From: Dongia rigui
GTDB taxonomy: Bacteria; Pseudomonadota; Alphaproteobacteria; Dongiales; Dongiaceae
Direction: 5' to 3'
NCBI RefSeq assembly: GCF_034044635.1
Contig: NZ_JAXCLX010000004.1
Span: 372,001 to 436,000 of the forward strand
Length of the DNA stretch: 64,000 nucleotides
Positions 2,166 to 33,152 of this stretch are shown here, piece by piece; within the stretch, counting starts at the first letter, position 1, and every line of letters begins with the position of its first letter. The position numbers were made by a program, and so were the translations under genes. The notes beneath the pieces are model-generated. The model had not been told where the DNA came from. It did no database searches and was given only the letters and a program-made list of their open reading frames with translations.

Positions 2166-4241
2166 TTAGCGCGCCGTTGCGACGATCAGCGCATCGACCG
2201 CAACGGCGCCCGTTTCATTGACGATCAACGGATTGACGTCCATCTCGCCGACCAGGCCCTCGAGGTCTGCCACCATCACCGCGAATGCCGCAAAGGCGCG
2301 CGCGAGCTTTTCGACATCCGCCGGCTTGGCGCCGCGCTTGCCATCCAGCAGTGGTCGTAAGGCCAACCCTTCAATGTGTCGCGCCGCCTCGATTGGACCG
2401 AAAGGCGGCAGCACAAAACGGCGGTCGGACATCATTTCGATCAGCACGCCGCCGGCCCCCACCATCACCACCGGGCCGAATTGCGGGTCCATTGTCATGC
2501 CAAAGGAGATCTCGACACCCTTCCCCGCCATCGGCATCAGCAGGACGCGGGGGCCCAGCCGCGCCTTGAGATCGGCATAGGCTGTTTCCAATTCCGCTGC
2601 GTTCTTGACGCCCAGCTTCACGCCGCCCACGTCTGATTTATGGAGGATGCCTGGCATTGCCGTCTTCAGCACGATGGGGTAGCCGATGCGATCGGCCGCC
2701 TCCTTTGCCGCATCAAGCGTCTCGGCGTGGACGTGGGCCACAACCGGCACGCCGTAATCGGCCAACAGGTCCAGCGCCTCAGCCTCCAAGAGGTCGCCTT
2801 GCGCCAGCCGCGGTGCCCATTTCTCCCGCAAGCCGGACGGCGCCACCGCCGCCACGTCCGGCGCCAACAACGCCCGGTCCCGCGCCGCCATCGCCTTCTT
2901 TACGACGCCGAGCATAGGTGCCACGCCGGAAAGAACCGGCACACCGTCATGGGCCAGCCGGGTAACGACATCCAGATTGGCATTGCTGCCGACATTGGTC
3001 GTGTAGAAGACCGGCTTTGTCGTGCGCGCCGCAACGCGGCGCAGGATATCGGCATAGCCGGCACTCAGATAATATTCATCGCGCGCCTCGACGCAGAGCG
3101 AGGCGAGCGCCGTATCCGGATCATCGACCAGCGCCTGCAGGCAATCCTCGAAGATCGCCGCCCAATCATTGCCGGTGCCCCAGGCATCCAGCGGATTAAT
3201 GGGCTCCAGGCCATAATCCAGCCGGGCCGCCAGTTTGGCTCGCGTCTCGTCGCTGATCTGGGCGAAGGGCACGCCGGCCTCGATGCCGAGATCCAGCACC
3301 AATTCGCGAAACCCGCCGGAATCATGCATCGTCGCCAGCCCGCCTGGCGCCAGCCGCCGCTCGCTGGAAAAGAGATGCAGCGCGTTCACCAGTTCATCCA
3401 TGTTGGCGACCTCGATCACGCCATAGCGATCGAACAGCGCCTGATAGGCCGCATGATTGCCGGCAACCGCCCCGGAATGCGAGACGGCAAGGGCCGCACT
3501 CTCGGCCGTGCGCCCGACCTTCAGCGCCACAACCGGGATCTCCATCCGCTGCGCCTTTAAGAGCGCCGCCTTGAACCCCGCCGGGTCACGCACGGTTTCG
3601 AGGAACAGCCCCACCACCTTGGTTGCCGGAATGTCGAGCGCGAAGTCGAGATAATCGGCCACATTGGTGGCCAGTTCCTGCCCTGCCGACACGGCTAGGC
3701 TGAAGCCGAAGCGCCGGTCGGTGTGGCAGAGCGCCGAGAAGGCCGAGCCCGAATGCGTGATGAAGGCGACATTGCCCTTGCGTATCCAGGCGGGCGGCGG
3801 GAAGCCGCAGACGCGCAGGCCGAAATCGAGATGGTAGAAACCCATGCAATTGCCGCCGCAAATGGCAACACCCGCCGCCCGTGCCTTCGCCGCGATGCGC
3901 TCGGTCAGCTTCGGCTCGGTATCGTTTTCGAGATACCCGCTGGCAAAGATCGTGACACCGCCGATGCCGCAGCCAATAGCCTCATCGAGTGCCGCTTCGA
4001 GCCGCACATTGGCGATGCCGAGCACGGCCATGTCGACCGTCTCCGGCAAGGCGCTCAGCGACGGATAGCAGCGCTGCCCGTCGATCTCCTGATAGGCTGG
4101 ATTGACGAAATAGATCTTCGGCAGCGTCCCCGCCATGCCGGTCGAAGTGATCATGCCGCGCCCGACCGACCCCTCCTTCGGGCTGGCACCCACAAGGGCC
4201 ACACTCCGGGGCCGCAGCAAACGGTCTAGTTTATGAGCCAT
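2166..4241 (-). CDS. Acetate--CoA ligase family protein (ADP-forming acyl-CoA synthetase)
   Basis: The 691-residue single-chain enzyme has the NDP-forming layout: an N-terminal CoA-binding Rossmann domain (LLRPRSVALVGASPKEGSVG), a succinyl-CoA-ligase-like middle, and a C-terminal ATP-grasp domain (about residues 470-691; ALDLLADYGVPVV, GYPIVLKT, HKSDVGGVKLGV). Such enzymes make an acyl-CoA from a carboxylate, CoA and ATP, releasing ADP and phosphate. The substrate is unknown. I chose the ATG at 4241 because GGGGCAGGGG sits just upstream; extension to 4253 needs a TTG. An intergenic palindromic repeat separates it from the TetR gene on the same strand, so co-transcription is possible but not shown. 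Confidence 0.88.
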   Translation of the reverse strand: MAHKLDRLLRPRSVALVGASPKEGSVGRGMITSTGMAGTLPKIYFVNPAYQEIDGQRCYPSLSALPETVDMAVLGIANVRLEAALDEAIGCGIGGVTIFASGYLENDTEPKLTERIAAKARAAGVAICGGNCMGFYHLDFGLRVCGFPPPAWIRKGNVAFITHSGSAFSALCHTDRRFGFSLAVSAGQELATNVADYLDFALDIPATKVVGLFLETVRDPAGFKAALLKAQRMEIPVVALKVGRTAESAALAVSHSGAVAGNHAAYQALFDRYGVIEVANMDELVNALHLFSSERRLAPGGLATMHDSGGFRELVLDLGIEAGVPFAQISDETRAKLAARLDYGLEPINPLDAWGTGNDWAAIFEDCLQALVDDPDTALASLCVEARDEYYLSAGYADILRRVAARTTKPVFYTTNVGSNANLDVVTRLAHDGVPVLSGVAPMLGVVKKAMAARDRALLAPDVAAVAPSGLREKWAPRLAQGDLLEAEALDLLADYGVPVVAHVHAETLDAAKEAADRIGYPIVLKTAMPGILHKSDVGGVKLGVKNAAELETAYADLKARLGPRVLLMPMAGKGVEISFGMTMDPQFGPVVMVGAGGVLIEMMSDRRFVLPPFGPIEAARHIEGLALRPLLDGKRGAKPADVEKLARAFAAFAVMVADLEGLVGEMDVNPLIVNETGAVAVDALIVATAR

Positions 4242-4260
4242 CCCCTGCCCCAACTTGCTT

Positions 4261-4340
4261 CGTCATCCCCGGGCTTGACCCGGGGATCCACCGGTGCCGC
4301 CTGTCGGCGTGGATGCCCGGATCAAGCCCGGGCATGACGT
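4261..4340. repeat. Intergenic palindromic repeat, family A copy 1
   Basis: An imperfect palindrome of about 80 bases: TCATCCCCGGGCTTGACC at the left and its counterpart ending GGGCATGACG at the right, with internal GGATCCA/TGGATGCC. The same architecture recurs at 10886-10977. It looks like a dispersed REP-like element between the TetR and acyl-CoA synthetase genes. Confidence 0.75.
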
Positions 4341-4349
4341 TCAGATTTT

Positions 4350-5345
4350 TTAGTCGGTCCCCTTTAGCGTCGCCAGCGCCGCCCTGTCGCGCATCGCCTG
4401 TTCCTGGGCACTGGCGAGGCGCGCCTCGAACAGGCGCTGCGCCTCGTCATGGATGGGGCCATAGATCTCCATCCACAGCTGCGCGTCGGTGGCGACGATG
4501 AGGCGCCCGATCTGCCACGAGCTCGGCTCGGCGCGGCCGTCGAGCCAGCTCTCCAGGATCTTCACCGAAATGCCGGCGGCAGCGGCCAGCACCTCGCGCC
4601 GCATGGGACCCACCGGTTCCAGGCGCTTGCGCAAGGCCGCGGCAAGGCGCGCGCGGTGCGCGTTGCGTCCCTGCACTTCCTGGTCGATGGCGAGCACCAC
4701 GGTATTGTCGTTGTCGCTCTTCCCCTTCTTCACACCGCCCGAGAAATGCGCCGGGAAGACGGAGGCGAGGTATTGCCGGCAGATGCGCTTGGCCTCCGCC
4801 CGGTTGAAGGCCTTGGGCTCCATCAGGCAGTCGAACCACATGCCGTCGATCATCGCGTTCAAGCCCGTGGCGACATCACCGGCCGATGCGCCTTCATAGC
4901 CGCCCTCCTGGATGATGCGCTGGCACAGGGTCTCGGTCTGGGCGAGGTAATCCTGTTCCAGCCGCGACACCACGTCATGATAGGCGGCATTGCCCCGCGC
5001 TTCCGCCCAGAAGGCGTACCAGATCGAGACCTTTTCCACGTTGCAGACGGTGGGATGGAAGTCGGCCTCGATCATCGCTTCGAGCCCGGCGGCCGGTGCC
5101 ACCTTGCCCTTGTTGATCGCCGCCTGCCAGAAGGCCGAGTATTCCTCGGCGATCTGTTCCAGTGTCGCGATCAGCAGTTGTTCCTTGGACTTGAAATAGA
5201 AATTGACGATGCCGGGCGACAAGCCGGCTTCGGAGGCCACATGGGTCAAGGTGGCATTGGCATAGCCGACCCGCCCGATTGCGCGAATTGTCGCGTCTAT
5301 CAATTGCTTACGGCGAACTTCCTTGACCGCTTCAGCTTTGGCCAT
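4350..5345 (-). CDS. TetR/AcrR regulator, BetI-like, with extra C-terminal Cro-like helix-turn-helix
   Basis: Residues 10-60 form a TetR DNA-binding domain (RRKQLIDATIRAIGRVGY, SEAGLSPGIVNFYFKSKEQLL). Residues 75-200 resemble the BetI-type C-terminal domain (WYAFWAEA, AMIDGMWFDCLMEP). The protein is 331 residues against about 200 for the family. The extension at residues 207-331 contains LAAAAGISVKILESWLDG followed by PSSWQIGRLIVATD (about 248-287), which reads like an XRE/Cro helix-turn-helix. It is divergent from the class III aminotransferase gene, with TGAAT-N4-ATTCA-like sites between them, so it probably represses that gene and itself. The inducer is unknown; BetI relatives respond to choline. 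Confidence 0.88.
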   Translation of the reverse strand: MAKAEAVKEVRRKQLIDATIRAIGRVGYANATLTHVASEAGLSPGIVNFYFKSKEQLLIATLEQIAEEYSAFWQAAINKGKVAPAAGLEAMIEADFHPTVCNVEKVSIWYAFWAEARGNAAYHDVVSRLEQDYLAQTETLCQRIIQEGGYEGASAGDVATGLNAMIDGMWFDCLMEPKAFNRAEAKRICRQYLASVFPAHFSGGVKKGKSDNDNTVVLAIDQEVQGRNAHRARLAAALRKRLEPVGPMRREVLAAAAGISVKILESWLDGRAEPSSWQIGRLIVATDAQLWMEIYGPIHDEAQRLFEARLASAQEQAMRDRAALATLKGTD

Positions 5346-30260: not shown

Positions 30261-31025
30261 CTAGAGGCTGGAATTGAGATGGCCGCCGTCGACCGTCAAG
30301 ACGGTACCGGTCATGTAGCGCGAGGCGTCGGCGGCCAGCAGCAGCAACGGGCCGTCGAGATCCTGAGGCGTACCCAGCCGCCGTTGCGGAATGCGCTTGA
30401 CCAGCGCGGCGCCGGCTTCGGTGTTGAAGAAGTCATCGTTGAGGGCGGTGCGGATATAGCCCGGCGCCAAGGCATTGACGCGGATGTTGTGGCGCGCCCA
30501 TTCCAGCGACAGGGCCTTGGTCATTTGAATCATGCCGGCCTTCGAGACGGCATAGGGCAGCGTCTGGCTGGCGACACGCTGGCCCAGGATCGAGGCAATG
30601 TTGATGATGTTGCCAGGGCGCTTGGCGCCGATCCAGCGCCGCGCGGCTTCCTGGGCTGCGAGCCAGGCCCCTTTGAGATTGGTGTCCATGACCTGGTCCC
30701 AATCTTTGTCCTCGAGTTCCAGCGACGGTGTGGTGAGCGACACGCCGGCATTGTTGACGAGGAGCGAGATCGGCCCCAGCTCGCTCTCGGCCGCGGCGAA
30801 GGCGGCGTTGAGGCCCTTGGGCAATGTGATGTCGCCGGTAACGGAGGCCGCCTTGAAGCCGCGGGCGCGGAGCTTCTCCGCCTCGGCCGCAACGATGTCG
30901 CCGCGCCGCGCCATGAGCGCCACGGCTGCACCCGCTTCCGCCAAAACGGCCGCGAAATGCCGCCCGAGATCGCCGGAGGCACCGGTCACAAGAGCCACCT
31001 GTCCGGTAAGATCGAACGCCGCCAT
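30261..31025 (-). CDS. Short-chain dehydrogenase/reductase (LvaD-like), first gene of the operon
   Basis: The 254-residue classical SDR has a TGASGDLG cofactor motif (14-21), NNAG (91-94), catalytic Ser145 (INIASILG), Tyr158 and Lys162 (YAVSK), and TVDGGH near the end. It is predicted to oxidise or reduce a hydroxyl or keto group with NAD(P). In the levulinate pathway an SDR (LvaD) acts with LvaA/B/C on the 3- or 4-hydroxyacyl-CoA pool; that role is inferred from gene order. Its start is 80 bases after an intrinsic terminator that ends a structured leader, so read-through control is plausible. Confidence 0.85.
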   Translation of the reverse strand: MAAFDLTGQVALVTGASGDLGRHFAAVLAEAGAAVALMARRGDIVAAEAEKLRARGFKAASVTGDITLPKGLNAAFAAAESELGPISLLVNNAGVSLTTPSLELEDKDWDQVMDTNLKGAWLAAQEAARRWIGAKRPGNIINIASILGQRVASQTLPYAVSKAGMIQMTKALSLEWARHNIRVNALAPGYIRTALNDDFFNTEAGAALVKRIPQRRLGTPQDLDGPLLLLAADASRYMTGTVLTVDGGHLNSSL

Positions 31026-31104
31026 CCTTGCCCCTGATCTTTTTTATCTGTGCGCTGTTCGCACTATGCCCGGCGTGTGCGGCCAAGGGAAAGACTTCAG
31101 GGCC

Positions 31105-31144
31105 AAAAAATGAAACCCGCCGCGGCCTCGGCCCGGCGAGTTTC
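31105..31144 (-). terminator. Intrinsic terminator (minus strand) before the SDR gene
   Basis: On the minus strand GAAACTCGCCG pairs with CGGCGGGTTTC (one G-U wobble) and is followed by ATTTTTTGG. No protein-coding gene ends just upstream of it; the pyrophosphatase gene, 380 bases away, has its own hairpin. Confidence 0.8.
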
Positions 31145-31446
31145 GCTTTTAGATGTCGCAGGGATCTAAATGGACGGATCGGGATTGAGGAGAACCCTCG
31201 TTTCGCCGCCGCCCTCAGGCCTTGGACTGCTGTCCGGGAAAAGGCCCCTCGGTATCCCTGGTTCTCAGATGAGAGATATCAATCTGCTGTGGTAGCCAGA
31301 TTGTCAGGTCTTATCGCCGGTGGAGTCATGGTTCTTAATCACCCTCCTTGGCTCGGGTTGCGGGCGTCACCTTCCGCAAAGCCAGCTTTGCCCCCACCTC
31401 CTGTGCAGGGGAAGCGGCGCTGGAAGATCCAGATCGCGCGCTTCCC
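31105..31446 (-). ncRNA. Candidate structured leader RNA or ncRNA upstream of the lva-like operon
   Basis: No protein gene fits 31026-31526, but the minus strand is dense in paired segments, 5' to 3': CCTGTGCA/TGCACAGG enclosing GGGAAGCG/CGCTTCCC and CTGGA/TCCAG (31400-31459); GCAAAG/CTTTGC (near 31380); GATTGA/TCAATC enclosing GAGAACC/GGTTCTC, an unpaired bubble and GGCCTT...GGAC/GTCC...AAGGCC (31185-31286); TTTAGAT/ATCTAAA (31148-31170); and a terminator (31105-31144). A possible promoter TTGACT-N16-CACAAT is at 31474-31447. It ends just before the SDR start. I could not match it to 6S, RNase P, tmRNA or a known riboswitch. Strand and ends are inferred. Confidence 0.5.
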
Positions 31447-31503
31447 ATTGTGCACAGGATCGACCTGAAGTCAAGAATTACGCAACAAATATGCGCGTTT
31501 TGC

Positions 31504-31526
31504 GCAATATTTATTCCGAATATTGC
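31504..31526 (-). terminator. Hairpin right after the pyrophosphatase stop
   Basis: GCAATATT/AATATTGC with a 7-base loop abuts the ppa stop codon, and a second small stem GCGC-GTTTT-GCGC overlaps it. The T tract is weak, so it may be a transcript-end stabiliser. Confidence 0.5.
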
Positions 31527-32054
31527 TTACTTCTTGCCGGCCTCGATCGCCTTGCGGATGAGGTCGACCGCCTCTTCCGGCTCTGCCCAGCGCGAGAACT
31601 TGACCCATTTGCCCTTCTCCAGATCCTTGTAATGGCTGAAGAAATGGCGGACCTGCTCGCGCAGGACCTCAGGCAGGTCGCGGTACGAACTGACGTTCGA
31701 ATAGAAGGGATGCAGCTTGTCGACGGGGACGGCGATGATCTTCTCGTCGCCACCCGCTTCATCTTCCATCATCAGGCAGCCCACCGGGCGCGAGCGCACC
31801 ACGGCGCCCGGGACGACCGGGGTGGGGCCAAGGACGATGATGTCCAAGGGATCGCCGTCGCCGCCCAACGTGTGGGGGATGAAGCCGTAATTGCCGGGAT
31901 AGAACATCGCCGTGTAGAGGAATCGGTCGACGAACATCGCCCCGGAATCCTTGTCGAGCTCGTATTTCACCGGCGTGCCGCCGAGCGGAATCTCGATGAT
32001 CGCGTTGAGGTCGTAGGGCGGGTTCTCGCCGATCTTGATCTTGCTGATATCCAT
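31527..32054 (-). CDS. ppa: Inorganic pyrophosphatase, family I
   Basis: The 175-residue enzyme has family I motifs: PPYDLNAIIEIP, KYELDKDSGAMFVDR, MFYPGNYGFIPHTLGGDGDPLDIIVL (metal-binding aspartates) and EDEAGGDEKIIAV. It hydrolyses pyrophosphate in the cytoplasm, driving biosynthetic reactions forward. The length is normal. The ATG at 32054 is preceded by a purine-rich site; an in-frame extension upstream lacks family similarity. Confidence 0.96.
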   Translation of the reverse strand: MDISKIKIGENPPYDLNAIIEIPLGGTPVKYELDKDSGAMFVDRFLYTAMFYPGNYGFIPHTLGGDGDPLDIIVLGPTPVVPGAVVRSRPVGCLMMEDEAGGDEKIIAVPVDKLHPFYSNVSSYRDLPEVLREQVRHFFSHYKDLEKGKWVKFSRWAEPEEAVDLIRKAIEAGKK

Positions 32055-32225: not shown

Positions 32226-32606
32226 TTAGTTGAGGACGTTGTAGCCCCGACCAGCCATGCAGCGGCGATAGACATCGCGCTGGTTCTGGACGCCGGTGAC
32301 CGCACCGCCGCCAAGGCCCAAGGCACCACCGGAAGCGGCACCGAAGGCAGCGCCTTCGCCGGCGCTGACACCGCCCACCAGGGCGCCGGTGATGGCACCA
32401 AGTGCTGCACCAGCGGCGGCACCGCCCACGGCGCCGACAGCGGCATCACCGACCGGGCTGACCTGGTTGGCGTATTGCTCGCACTCGTAATTGTCCTGGG
32501 AATAGCGCGACTGATCGACCCCCTTGGTGTCGACCATCGGCTGGCTGTAGCTGGAGCACGCTGCCAGCATCGACGCCGTCATCACGACCGCCACAATACG
32601 CTTCAT
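32226..32606 (-). CDS. Glycine-zipper outer-membrane lipoprotein (tandem copy 1)
   Basis: The 126-residue protein has a lipoprotein signal ending MLAAC (Cys17). It then has a short domain with a cysteine (YECEQYANQVSPV) and about 60 residues of glycine/alanine zipper (AAVGAVGGAAAGAALGA) likely to pack in a membrane, closing with YRRCMAGRGYNVLN. The two non-lipobox cysteines may form a disulfide. Glycine-zipper lipoproteins are common in alphaproteobacterial envelopes, with unclear roles. It is a close paralogue of the next gene. Confidence 0.82.
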   Translation of the reverse strand: MKRIVAVVMTASMLAACSSYSQPMVDTKGVDQSRYSQDNYECEQYANQVSPVGDAAVGAVGGAAAGAALGAITGALVGGVSAGEGAAFGAASGGALGLGGGAVTGVQNQRDVYRRCMAGRGYNVLN

Positions 32607-32777
32607 CTCGGTTGTCCTTTCCTGCTTCTCGTCCCGGCACCAGCCCATGAGGGTCCGGTTTGCCAGATAGCGTCAAATCACACGCATTATAGAGCGGTTC
32701 CCTGCCGCCCCGCACACTCAAATTTAAGTGAACGAGGCCCCGCCGAATGCCCAAAAATGGGCGGGATTTCAATGAAC

Positions 32778-33152
32778 TTAGTAGTAGGTGCTGTAGCCGC
32801 GACCACGCATGCAGTTGTTGAGCACCTGCTTCTGGTTCTGGGTCCCGGTATAGGCACCGCCAGCCAGGCCCAGAACGCCACCGGCAGCGGCGCCGACCGC
32901 CGCACCTTCACCGACCGAGACGCCCTTGAAGAGGGCGCCAGACAGGGCACCCAAGGCGGCACCGCCGGCAGCGCCACCCAGGGCACCGACCGCGGCGTCC
33001 TGCACCGGGCTCACCTGATTGGCATAGGCCTGGCACTCGGCCAGATCCTGGTTGTAGGTGTTGGCACCGGCCTGCTGGTAAGGCTGATAGGTCTGCGCGA
33101 CAGCGGCCTGGCTCACCAACGTGAAGGCGGCAACAAGAAGAATGCGTTTCAT
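32778..33152 (-). CDS. Glycine-zipper envelope protein (tandem copy 2)
   Basis: The 124-residue paralogue of the adjacent gene has the same pattern: ECQAYANQVSPVQDAAVGALGG, a long glycine zipper, then NNCMRGRGYSTYY. The key difference is the N-terminus: a cleavable signal ending QAAVAQ instead of a lipobox, so this copy is not lipidated. Both genes lie on the same strand with 171 bases between, indicating duplication followed by divergence in anchoring. Confidence 0.8.
   Translation of the reverse strand: MKRILLVAAFTLVSQAAVAQTYQPYQQAGANTYNQDLAECQAYANQVSPVQDAAVGALGGAAGGAALGALSGALFKGVSVGEGAAVGAAAGGVLGLAGGAYTGTQNQKQVLNNCMRGRGYSTYY

Follow-up and report, generated by a model that had tools for sequence, protein, structure and literature searches.

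A probable stand-alone RNA family of alphaproteobacteria with a core hairpin that may cage a Pro-Pro mini-gene

Within the window, the whole 64,000-nucleotide stretch of Dongia rigui DNA analysed here, the minus strand between a pyrophosphatase gene (32054-31527) and an SDR/acyl-CoA dehydrogenase operon (SDR start at 31025) carries what is very probably a stand-alone conserved RNA. This RNA probably belongs to an alphaproteobacterial RNA family that is apparently undescribed. The best explanation, to which we give an even chance, is a family of stand-alone sRNAs whose ribosome-binding site is caged and whose mini-gene is translated. The sequence features on which this explanation is based are: a conserved layout; varied neighbouring genes; covariation at one pair of the hairpin; and an excess of early in-frame stops. 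Transcription, translation, slowing of the ribosome at Pro-Pro codons and regulation in trans are what we infer. The features of the locus are collected in Table 1.

Table 1. Features of the RNA locus in the window.
Feature	Positions	Strand	Remarks
Array of TTGCGC-like half sites upstream of the -35	31478..31526	-	candidate regulator-binding site
Promoter-like TTGACT-N16-CACAAT	31447..31474	-	sole one in 1.5 kb scanned; 0.3 expected
Predicted small RNA, ~337 bases	31105..31441	-	start placed from the promoter position
Helix P2, ATCTTCC (31428-31422) with GGAAGGT (31375-31369)	31369..31428	-	almost invariant in 6 species
Core hairpin holding Shine-Dalgarno GGAGG and AUG	31322..31347	-	part common to the class
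Mini-ORF MTPPAIRPDNLATTAD, 16 codons and TGA	31279..31329	-	starts inside the core hairpin
Hairpin P3, CAATCTG/CAGATTG, 7 pairs	31280..31303	-	paired anew in g5
Hairpin P4	31263..31277	-	CTCAG/CTGAG in relatives
3' domain, helix P5 (CAGGGAT 31260-31254 with ATCCCTG 31165-31159) and enclosed hairpins	31159..31260	-
Intrinsic terminator, stem 31144-31112, T run to 31105	31105..31144	-	conserved
Promoter-like block TTTCCC-N18-CATAGT between terminator and SDR start	31063..31092	-	by reading

The original prediction had the RNA begin at a promoter-like TTGACT-N16-CACAAT. This site is found on the minus strand, and its position is kept in most of the window's genus (g1, which includes Dongia mobilis; NCBI: Rhodospirillales, Dongiaceae). 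The distance from TTGAC to the GGAGG of the core is 124-132 bases in 5/7 genus species, in both genomes of a second genus, g5, and in all six copies of family f51: it is 124-128 in the five g1 species, and 130 and 132 in the two g5 genomes. The locus L018 has TTGAC 161 bases before GGAGG, and L010 has TTGAT instead. Among the 37 family members read, 29 have TTGAC at most 220 bases from GGAGG, at varied distances.

Upstream of this promoter, the sequence GCGCATNTTTNTTGCGTA occurs exactly once per genome in six of the seven genus genomes, at the RNA promoter, and is absent from G005 (L018); the longer upstream pattern TTGCGCANNANGCGCATNTTTNTTGCGTA fits 5/7. Elsewhere in the seven genus genomes, the TTGCGC element is not repeated exactly (nine places match with two mismatches), and for this reason no regulon is assigned to it. 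The pyrophosphatase gene had been credited with a hairpin of its own. That hairpin lacks a T run and looks like part of the repeated TTGCGC element.

At the other end, the intrinsic terminator predicted 80 bases before the SDR start is present on the minus strand. As the scan for such sites is barely above its shuffles (3 terminator-like sites vs 1.3 +/- 1.4), the support for this terminator is its conservation. A script placed a terminator in 27/37 family members and in none of the other 10, a count in which L194 (among the 10) ends with its contig and the placement in L147 is evidently wrong. Stems followed by T are readable in several of the 10.

Both a stand-alone ncRNA and a riboswitch or attenuator for the acyl operon had been proposed. 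The RNA's own promoter-like site and terminator, and the occurrence of the same core beside different genes, support the former. In the latter, the RNA would be a cis-acting riboswitch or leader-peptide attenuator of the SDR/acyl-CoA dehydrogenase operon, as the position of the terminator 80 bases before the SDR gene and an SDR-like gene downstream in the genus loci read would suggest; in the distant relative L162, too, an SDR gene lies 288 bases downstream of the RNA. Set against this, the RNA ends in that terminator and a further promoter-like block, TTTCCC-N18-CATAGT, follows it; a 207-codon gene stands between the RNA and the SDR-like gene in L018; ppa and the SDR-like gene adjoin without the RNA in L017; and the same core is found beside other genes elsewhere, including the g5 genomes, where by reading an aldehyde-dehydrogenase-like gene lies upstream of the RNA and there is no SDR operon. 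A cis-acting element is thus highly improbable. The promoter-like block is itself a possible separate start of the SDR operon, judged by sequence: CATAGT is present in all five sequences read (window, L009, L010, L011 and L012; L005 was read to a point short of it), preceded at N18 by TTTCCC in the window, L009 and L012, by TTTCAC in L011 and by neither in L010. The promoter scan did not list this block as sigma-70-like.

The wider family gives the same picture of varied neighbours. At 29 loci, a simple ORF script listed 49 neighbouring proteins of >= 90 residues, 37 of which were Pfam-scanned; 29 of these matched Pfam (IPP transferase, RecO, CbiJ, cation efflux, luciferase-like, glutamine synthetase, MscS and others). 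A common neighbour was seen only within one genus, an M28 peptidase on the opposite strand in L155 and L162. The flanking genes overall have no common theme, and a link to one kind of downstream gene is not kept, with L162 as the exception. Two further observations concern the surroundings of the locus. Adjacent similar small reading frames at 32226-32648 and 32778-33152 of the window have, by reading, lipoprotein-like starts and glycine-zipper-like repeats; a Pfam scan of the first gave no match. In L012 (a MAG), the ppa frame at 4001-4528 is interrupted by an in-frame stop close to codon 129.

The RNA is present in 7/7 genomes of g1. The core pattern was found in none of 10 other genomes of the family and, in the class sample, in 5/385 genomes, all of them g1; Dongia deserti (L016; Dongia per NCBI) has no copy in the 8.5 kb locus around ppa. 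A covariance model of the core, R1, finds the two g5 genomes of the same family (E 3.5e-6 and 3.1e-5); these two have the same core, a re-paired P3, a terminator and other neighbours. Two broader models, R2 (built on nine sequences) and R3 (built on 27 core sequences), reach 27/385 class genomes in 20/276 genera and 32/385 in 23/276, respectively, at E <= 0.01, where E-values are per genome and rough, about 4 chance matches are expected over 385 genomes, and weak matches are also lost to the filtering applied when many genomes are scanned. At E <= 1e-5, R3 retains 22 of its 32 genomes, 5 in g1 and 17 others in 9 families; most of these strong matches are not independent, since R3 was trained mostly on R2 hits. 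Eight of the ten genomes new with R3 were read (the places in G206 and G331 are not among them), and all eight have GGAGG or TGAGG, then a start codon (ATG in 5; TTG, CTG and ACG in 1 each), then AnnCCnCC.

Not every match was retained. The R2 matches L164, L165, L167 and L168 were judged false or the start of a protein, a number close to the chance expectation. Also left out were L169, which nearly duplicates L147, L200, which is the place already represented by L166, and L202, a chance match within coding sequence. L150, whose genome R3 does not recover, was retained on reading. Over 80 named loci, R3 found only the 5 of the window's genus. When the window RNA was compared with plasmids by BLAST, 7 Azospirillum records matched over 27-33 bases; all were set aside as chance, because at the two places inspected the matching bases fall inside a long reading frame or opposite one. 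Viral contigs contained the pattern 4 times, in frames of 28-82 codons, and on reading none of these had the layout of the RNA. Searching plasmids and phages with the relatives produced no named homologue, with some matches of 27-35 bases only.

G066 has three copies of the RNA, two of them in tandem ~330 bases apart (L170/L171, G066:C1:2336095-2336516); by reading, a GTG frame upstream begins alike in L170, L171 and L148. In L152 (1501-1567 and the preceding 100 bases), what is apparently a single transcript contains two Shine-Dalgarno/mini-ORF units, one for MTPPGH and one for MTPPDQIARGA; R3 scores the first unit too. In G245, the RNA copies L147 and L169 are nearly identical and near contig ends, which suggests a repeat or an assembly duplicate.

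The suggested check against all Rfam families, 6S included, yields no family that matches. With Rfam 15 at the gathering threshold, the window contains only a tRNA, and in E-value mode the stretch 30900-31700 has 2 weak matches, both well under the cut-off; L144 and L145 have nothing at the RNA (E <= 2), and 20 relatives (L147-L171 set) have one tRNA only. The genome's one alpha tmRNA match (RF01849) and its one 6S RNA match (RF00013) lie elsewhere, at C1:432219 and C2:741422, and ARAGORN finds no tmRNA in the window. The small mRNAs rreB/rreR, with an extended 17-base Shine-Dalgarno, a GTG start and 14 or 18 residues, resemble the Dongia RNA as small conserved alphaproteobacterial transcripts with a strong Shine-Dalgarno and a very short ORF. 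The long Shine-Dalgarno, the GTG start and the peptide length set them apart from it in description, and they may be identical with part of the RNA family.

Other alphaproteobacterial sRNAs resemble the Dongia RNA in part, as far as the portions consulted describe them. NfeR1 (alpha-r14) of Sinorhizobium meliloti, 123 nt long with CCUCCUCCC in three hairpins, is likewise a stand-alone sRNA with a sigma-70 promoter, several hairpins, an invariant motif and a conserved upstream box (PMC10746234). Unlike NfeR1, the Dongia RNA has one caged Shine-Dalgarno/start hairpin and a mini-ORF, and CCUCCUCCC is absent from the window RNA, which is therefore not assigned to alpha-r14. The small RNA rnTrpL/peTrpL of S. 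meliloti has a 14-codon ORF and acts in trans; it is a product of trpE(G) attenuation and starts at its own AUG (PMC7298713), whereas the Dongia RNA begins with a leader, has its start codon caged and is not followed by any constant operon. As far as they are described there, neither alpha-r14 nor rnTrpL/peTrpL has the Dongia core. SisA-D (alpha-r8), stand-alone sRNAs in four copies, and the Caulobacter sponge CrfA, compared by description, are pairing sRNAs for which the portions consulted mention no mini-ORF (PMC12559287). As weak evidence, the RNA is not described in the parts consulted of open-licence PubMed Central texts, including PMC5082802, PMC10746234, PMC12559287, PMC7298713 and PMC2245857. 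It is best classed as a small RNA with a short ORF that is not a member of a named family.

The dense RNA structure claimed for this stretch is borne out on the minus strand. Positions 31105-31474 fold at -161.2 kcal/mol (z -4.65; 0/100 shuffles as stable), with a weaker value from the predicted start at 31441 (z only -2.38; 1/100 shuffles as stable); the plus strand of 31105-31474 also folds well (z -3.18). The entire RNA is alignable in six genus species. In its fixed helices, 14 pairs changed on both sides, vs 5.5 in shuffles (0/500) and at most 3 in slid controls, the structure being derived from the same six-species alignment. Covariation, which had been named as a check, is therefore found: in these genus helices, in P3 and at one pair of the core hairpin.

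The individual helices differ in how they are kept. P2 is invariant in 6 species except for one base missing in L009, and in the most diverged species, L018, it reads GACTTCC/GGAAGTC, with two double, compensatory changes. Between the window's genus and g5, both bases differ at 5 of the P3 pairs, a comparison in which the alignment was fitted to the structure and which represents a single split of two lineages. P4 is shortened in the window and L009, and in L018 one of its pairs has changed on both sides. Depending on the species, one P5 pair is A-U, G-C or U-A, and 10/19 of the pairs enclosed by P5 show change on both sides; P5 itself is not kept in L018. The stems first read from the window alone fared differently. 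By reading of the alignments, the CCTGTGCA stem is not conserved, its pair being absent from relatives; because it overlaps the -10 box, it would also lie outside the RNA if the promoter is right. The GGGAAGCG stem pairs only in the window and L009, and the TTTAGAT stem only in the window. The CTGGA/TCCAG stem could not be confirmed: L005 and L018 have lost it, and it is in competition with ATCTTCC/GGAAGGT. Helices of the RNA outside this set are conserved.

The part common to the class is the core hairpin. By hand alignment, it reads GGAG-G-RUG-N4-loop-N4'-CAU-GA-nUCC-n-CC, often with GUAARA as the loop; in the fold, GGAG pairs with CUCC, and RUG-N with N'-CAU. GGAGG is present in 35/37 members, with GGGGG and TGAGG in the remaining two. 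The N4-N4' position is paired in 22 of 26 representatives, as compared to a shuffle mean of 12.3 (0/10,000 shuffles), in a test that ignores the kinship of the sequences and omits near copies and L150, L166 and L197, where the arrangement is absent. All four Watson-Crick types occur (CG 11, TA 4, GC 3, AT 2; TG in a further 2), of which CG, TA and AT recur in different families and GC is seen only in family f56. The next position pairs in 3/26, as by chance, and in 6/7 genus sequences, the window included, the N4 pair is missing. The seven pairs of GGAG/CUCC and RUG/CAU have no double changes and some are broken, so that the covariation evidence for the core hairpin amounts to one pair. The constancy of the seven pairs could be imposed by the Shine-Dalgarno, the start codon and the Pro codons. 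For family f51, a pseudoknot pairing the hairpin loop with UUACU was weighed but not retained, as by reading it was not seen elsewhere.

The frame that starts inside this hairpin was first noted in the window as MTPPAIRPDNLATTAD behind AAGGAGGG, and it has the claimed 16 codons in 7/7 genus species. M-x-P-P (x = T, S, N or I) is encoded in 36/37 members, with MEDTPP in L150; examples are MTPPALT, MTPPIHR, MTPPEES, MTPPTQW, MSPPAIT and MTPPGHF, each followed by a stop. The start codon is ATG in 33 members, TTG in 2, CTG in 1 and ACG in 1 (L193, where the hairpin pair is kept). The frames have 7 codons in 13 members, 11 in 6 and 16 in the seven of g1, within an overall range of 5-34 and mostly 5-20; the long ones are L195 (27 codons) and L196 (34), and that of L194 runs off its contig. 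Across the 37 members, the two Pro codons vary only at third positions, a pattern that is partly built in because CCnCC was required for reading members.

In 18 of 23 representatives, hand-picked from the 37, a stop follows at most 7 codons after Pro-Pro, vs a dinucleotide shuffle mean of 4.9 (0/2000), and the other two frames give 5/23 and 8/23 by the same criterion. Early stops and frame controls, as sequence statistics, are thus what is expected of a small RNA with a short ORF under selection, and the mini-ORF is rather likely to be translated. Against this reading, GGAGG lies 12-14 bases from the start codon in 32/37 members, longer than the usual spacing of 5-9. Within the genus, constraint on the RNA sequence goes further than a peptide would require, as the 10 codons besides ATG that keep their amino acid in 7 species show zero synonymous change, as compared to 39/129 amino-acid-keeping codons unchanged in ppa (6 species).

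Some lineages have a second, upstream mini-ORF. In L152, this is MTPPGH. L153 and L159 have MTIETPPDGAHTTREGG and MSNLTPPDGAPTFREGG, with frame, stop and TPPDGA kept; L155 and L162 have the TTG-started TVKTPPTQWAAE and KVKSPRTQWAAK, with frame, stop and TQWAA kept and the Pro-Pro lost in L162. TPPTQW is also the main peptide in family f87. By reading, neither a GTG-initiated frame nor the upstream frames seen in the genus are conserved from species to species.

The main rival to a translated mini-gene, itself rather unlikely, is an untranslated trans-acting sRNA, in which the conserved stretch around CUCCACC would base-pair with target mRNAs, with the internal GGAGG as its mask and M-x-P-P as a by-product. 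Core nucleotides unchanged over diverged genus species, the hairpin covariation, an hfq gene in the genome and the missing start codon of L193 would all be consistent with such an RNA. The excess of early in-frame stops argues against it, as does the base between the two CC pairs: a full anti-Shine-Dalgarno, UCCUCC, needs U, and this base is A in 31/37 members, G in 6/37 and never U. A search of the seven genomes with the 19-base core complement (<= 3 mismatches) also found no place common to more than 2 besides the RNA itself, with 15 places at 2-3 mismatches vs 5 for the reversed control.

GGAGG could alternatively act as a decoy that binds ribosomes or an RNA-binding protein, the peptide being irrelevant. 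Its near-constancy in the family (35/37) and the two unit copies in one stretch of L152 fit this proposal, which we consider quite improbable and which leaves the early in-frame stops unexplained. A CsrA sponge in particular is unlikely, because csrA (PF02599) was not found in this genome; PF02599 is detected in 3/14 control genomes.

Returning to the caged mini-gene, the anatomy shared by the family comprises: usually a sigma-70-type promoter; a leader of variable length; the caging hairpin; the mini-ORF; one or more further hairpins; and an intrinsic terminator. The RNA would be made on its own. The hairpin would cage both the Shine-Dalgarno and the start codon, with the mini-ORF beginning inside it, and a ribosome would load only once the hairpin opens. 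The early Pro-Pro codons may then slow the ribosome, and ribosome occupancy may set the stability of the RNA or its choice of pairing partner. This gating mechanism is tentative. More doubtful still is a broader reading as a widespread ribosome-sensing RNA, in which free ribosomes, temperature or a protein would open the hairpin and the Pro-Pro pause, perhaps dependent on EF-P or proline supply, would switch trans activity; in some lineages, two such units would stand in tandem in one RNA.

Outside the window's own family, the conserved RNA gene is found in nine sampled families of Alphaproteobacteria, with no match among 4227 Rfam families for the members scanned. The RNA family would fill a gap in the regulatory map of this major bacterial class. 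Should the caged mini-gene be true, the RNA would be unusual among free-standing RNAs in that a ribosome-binding site, and not a pairing seed, forms its conserved core, and the role of very short Pro-Pro frames would become directly testable. The alphaproteobacteria would thereby gain an unstudied RNA that ribosomes may open and read.
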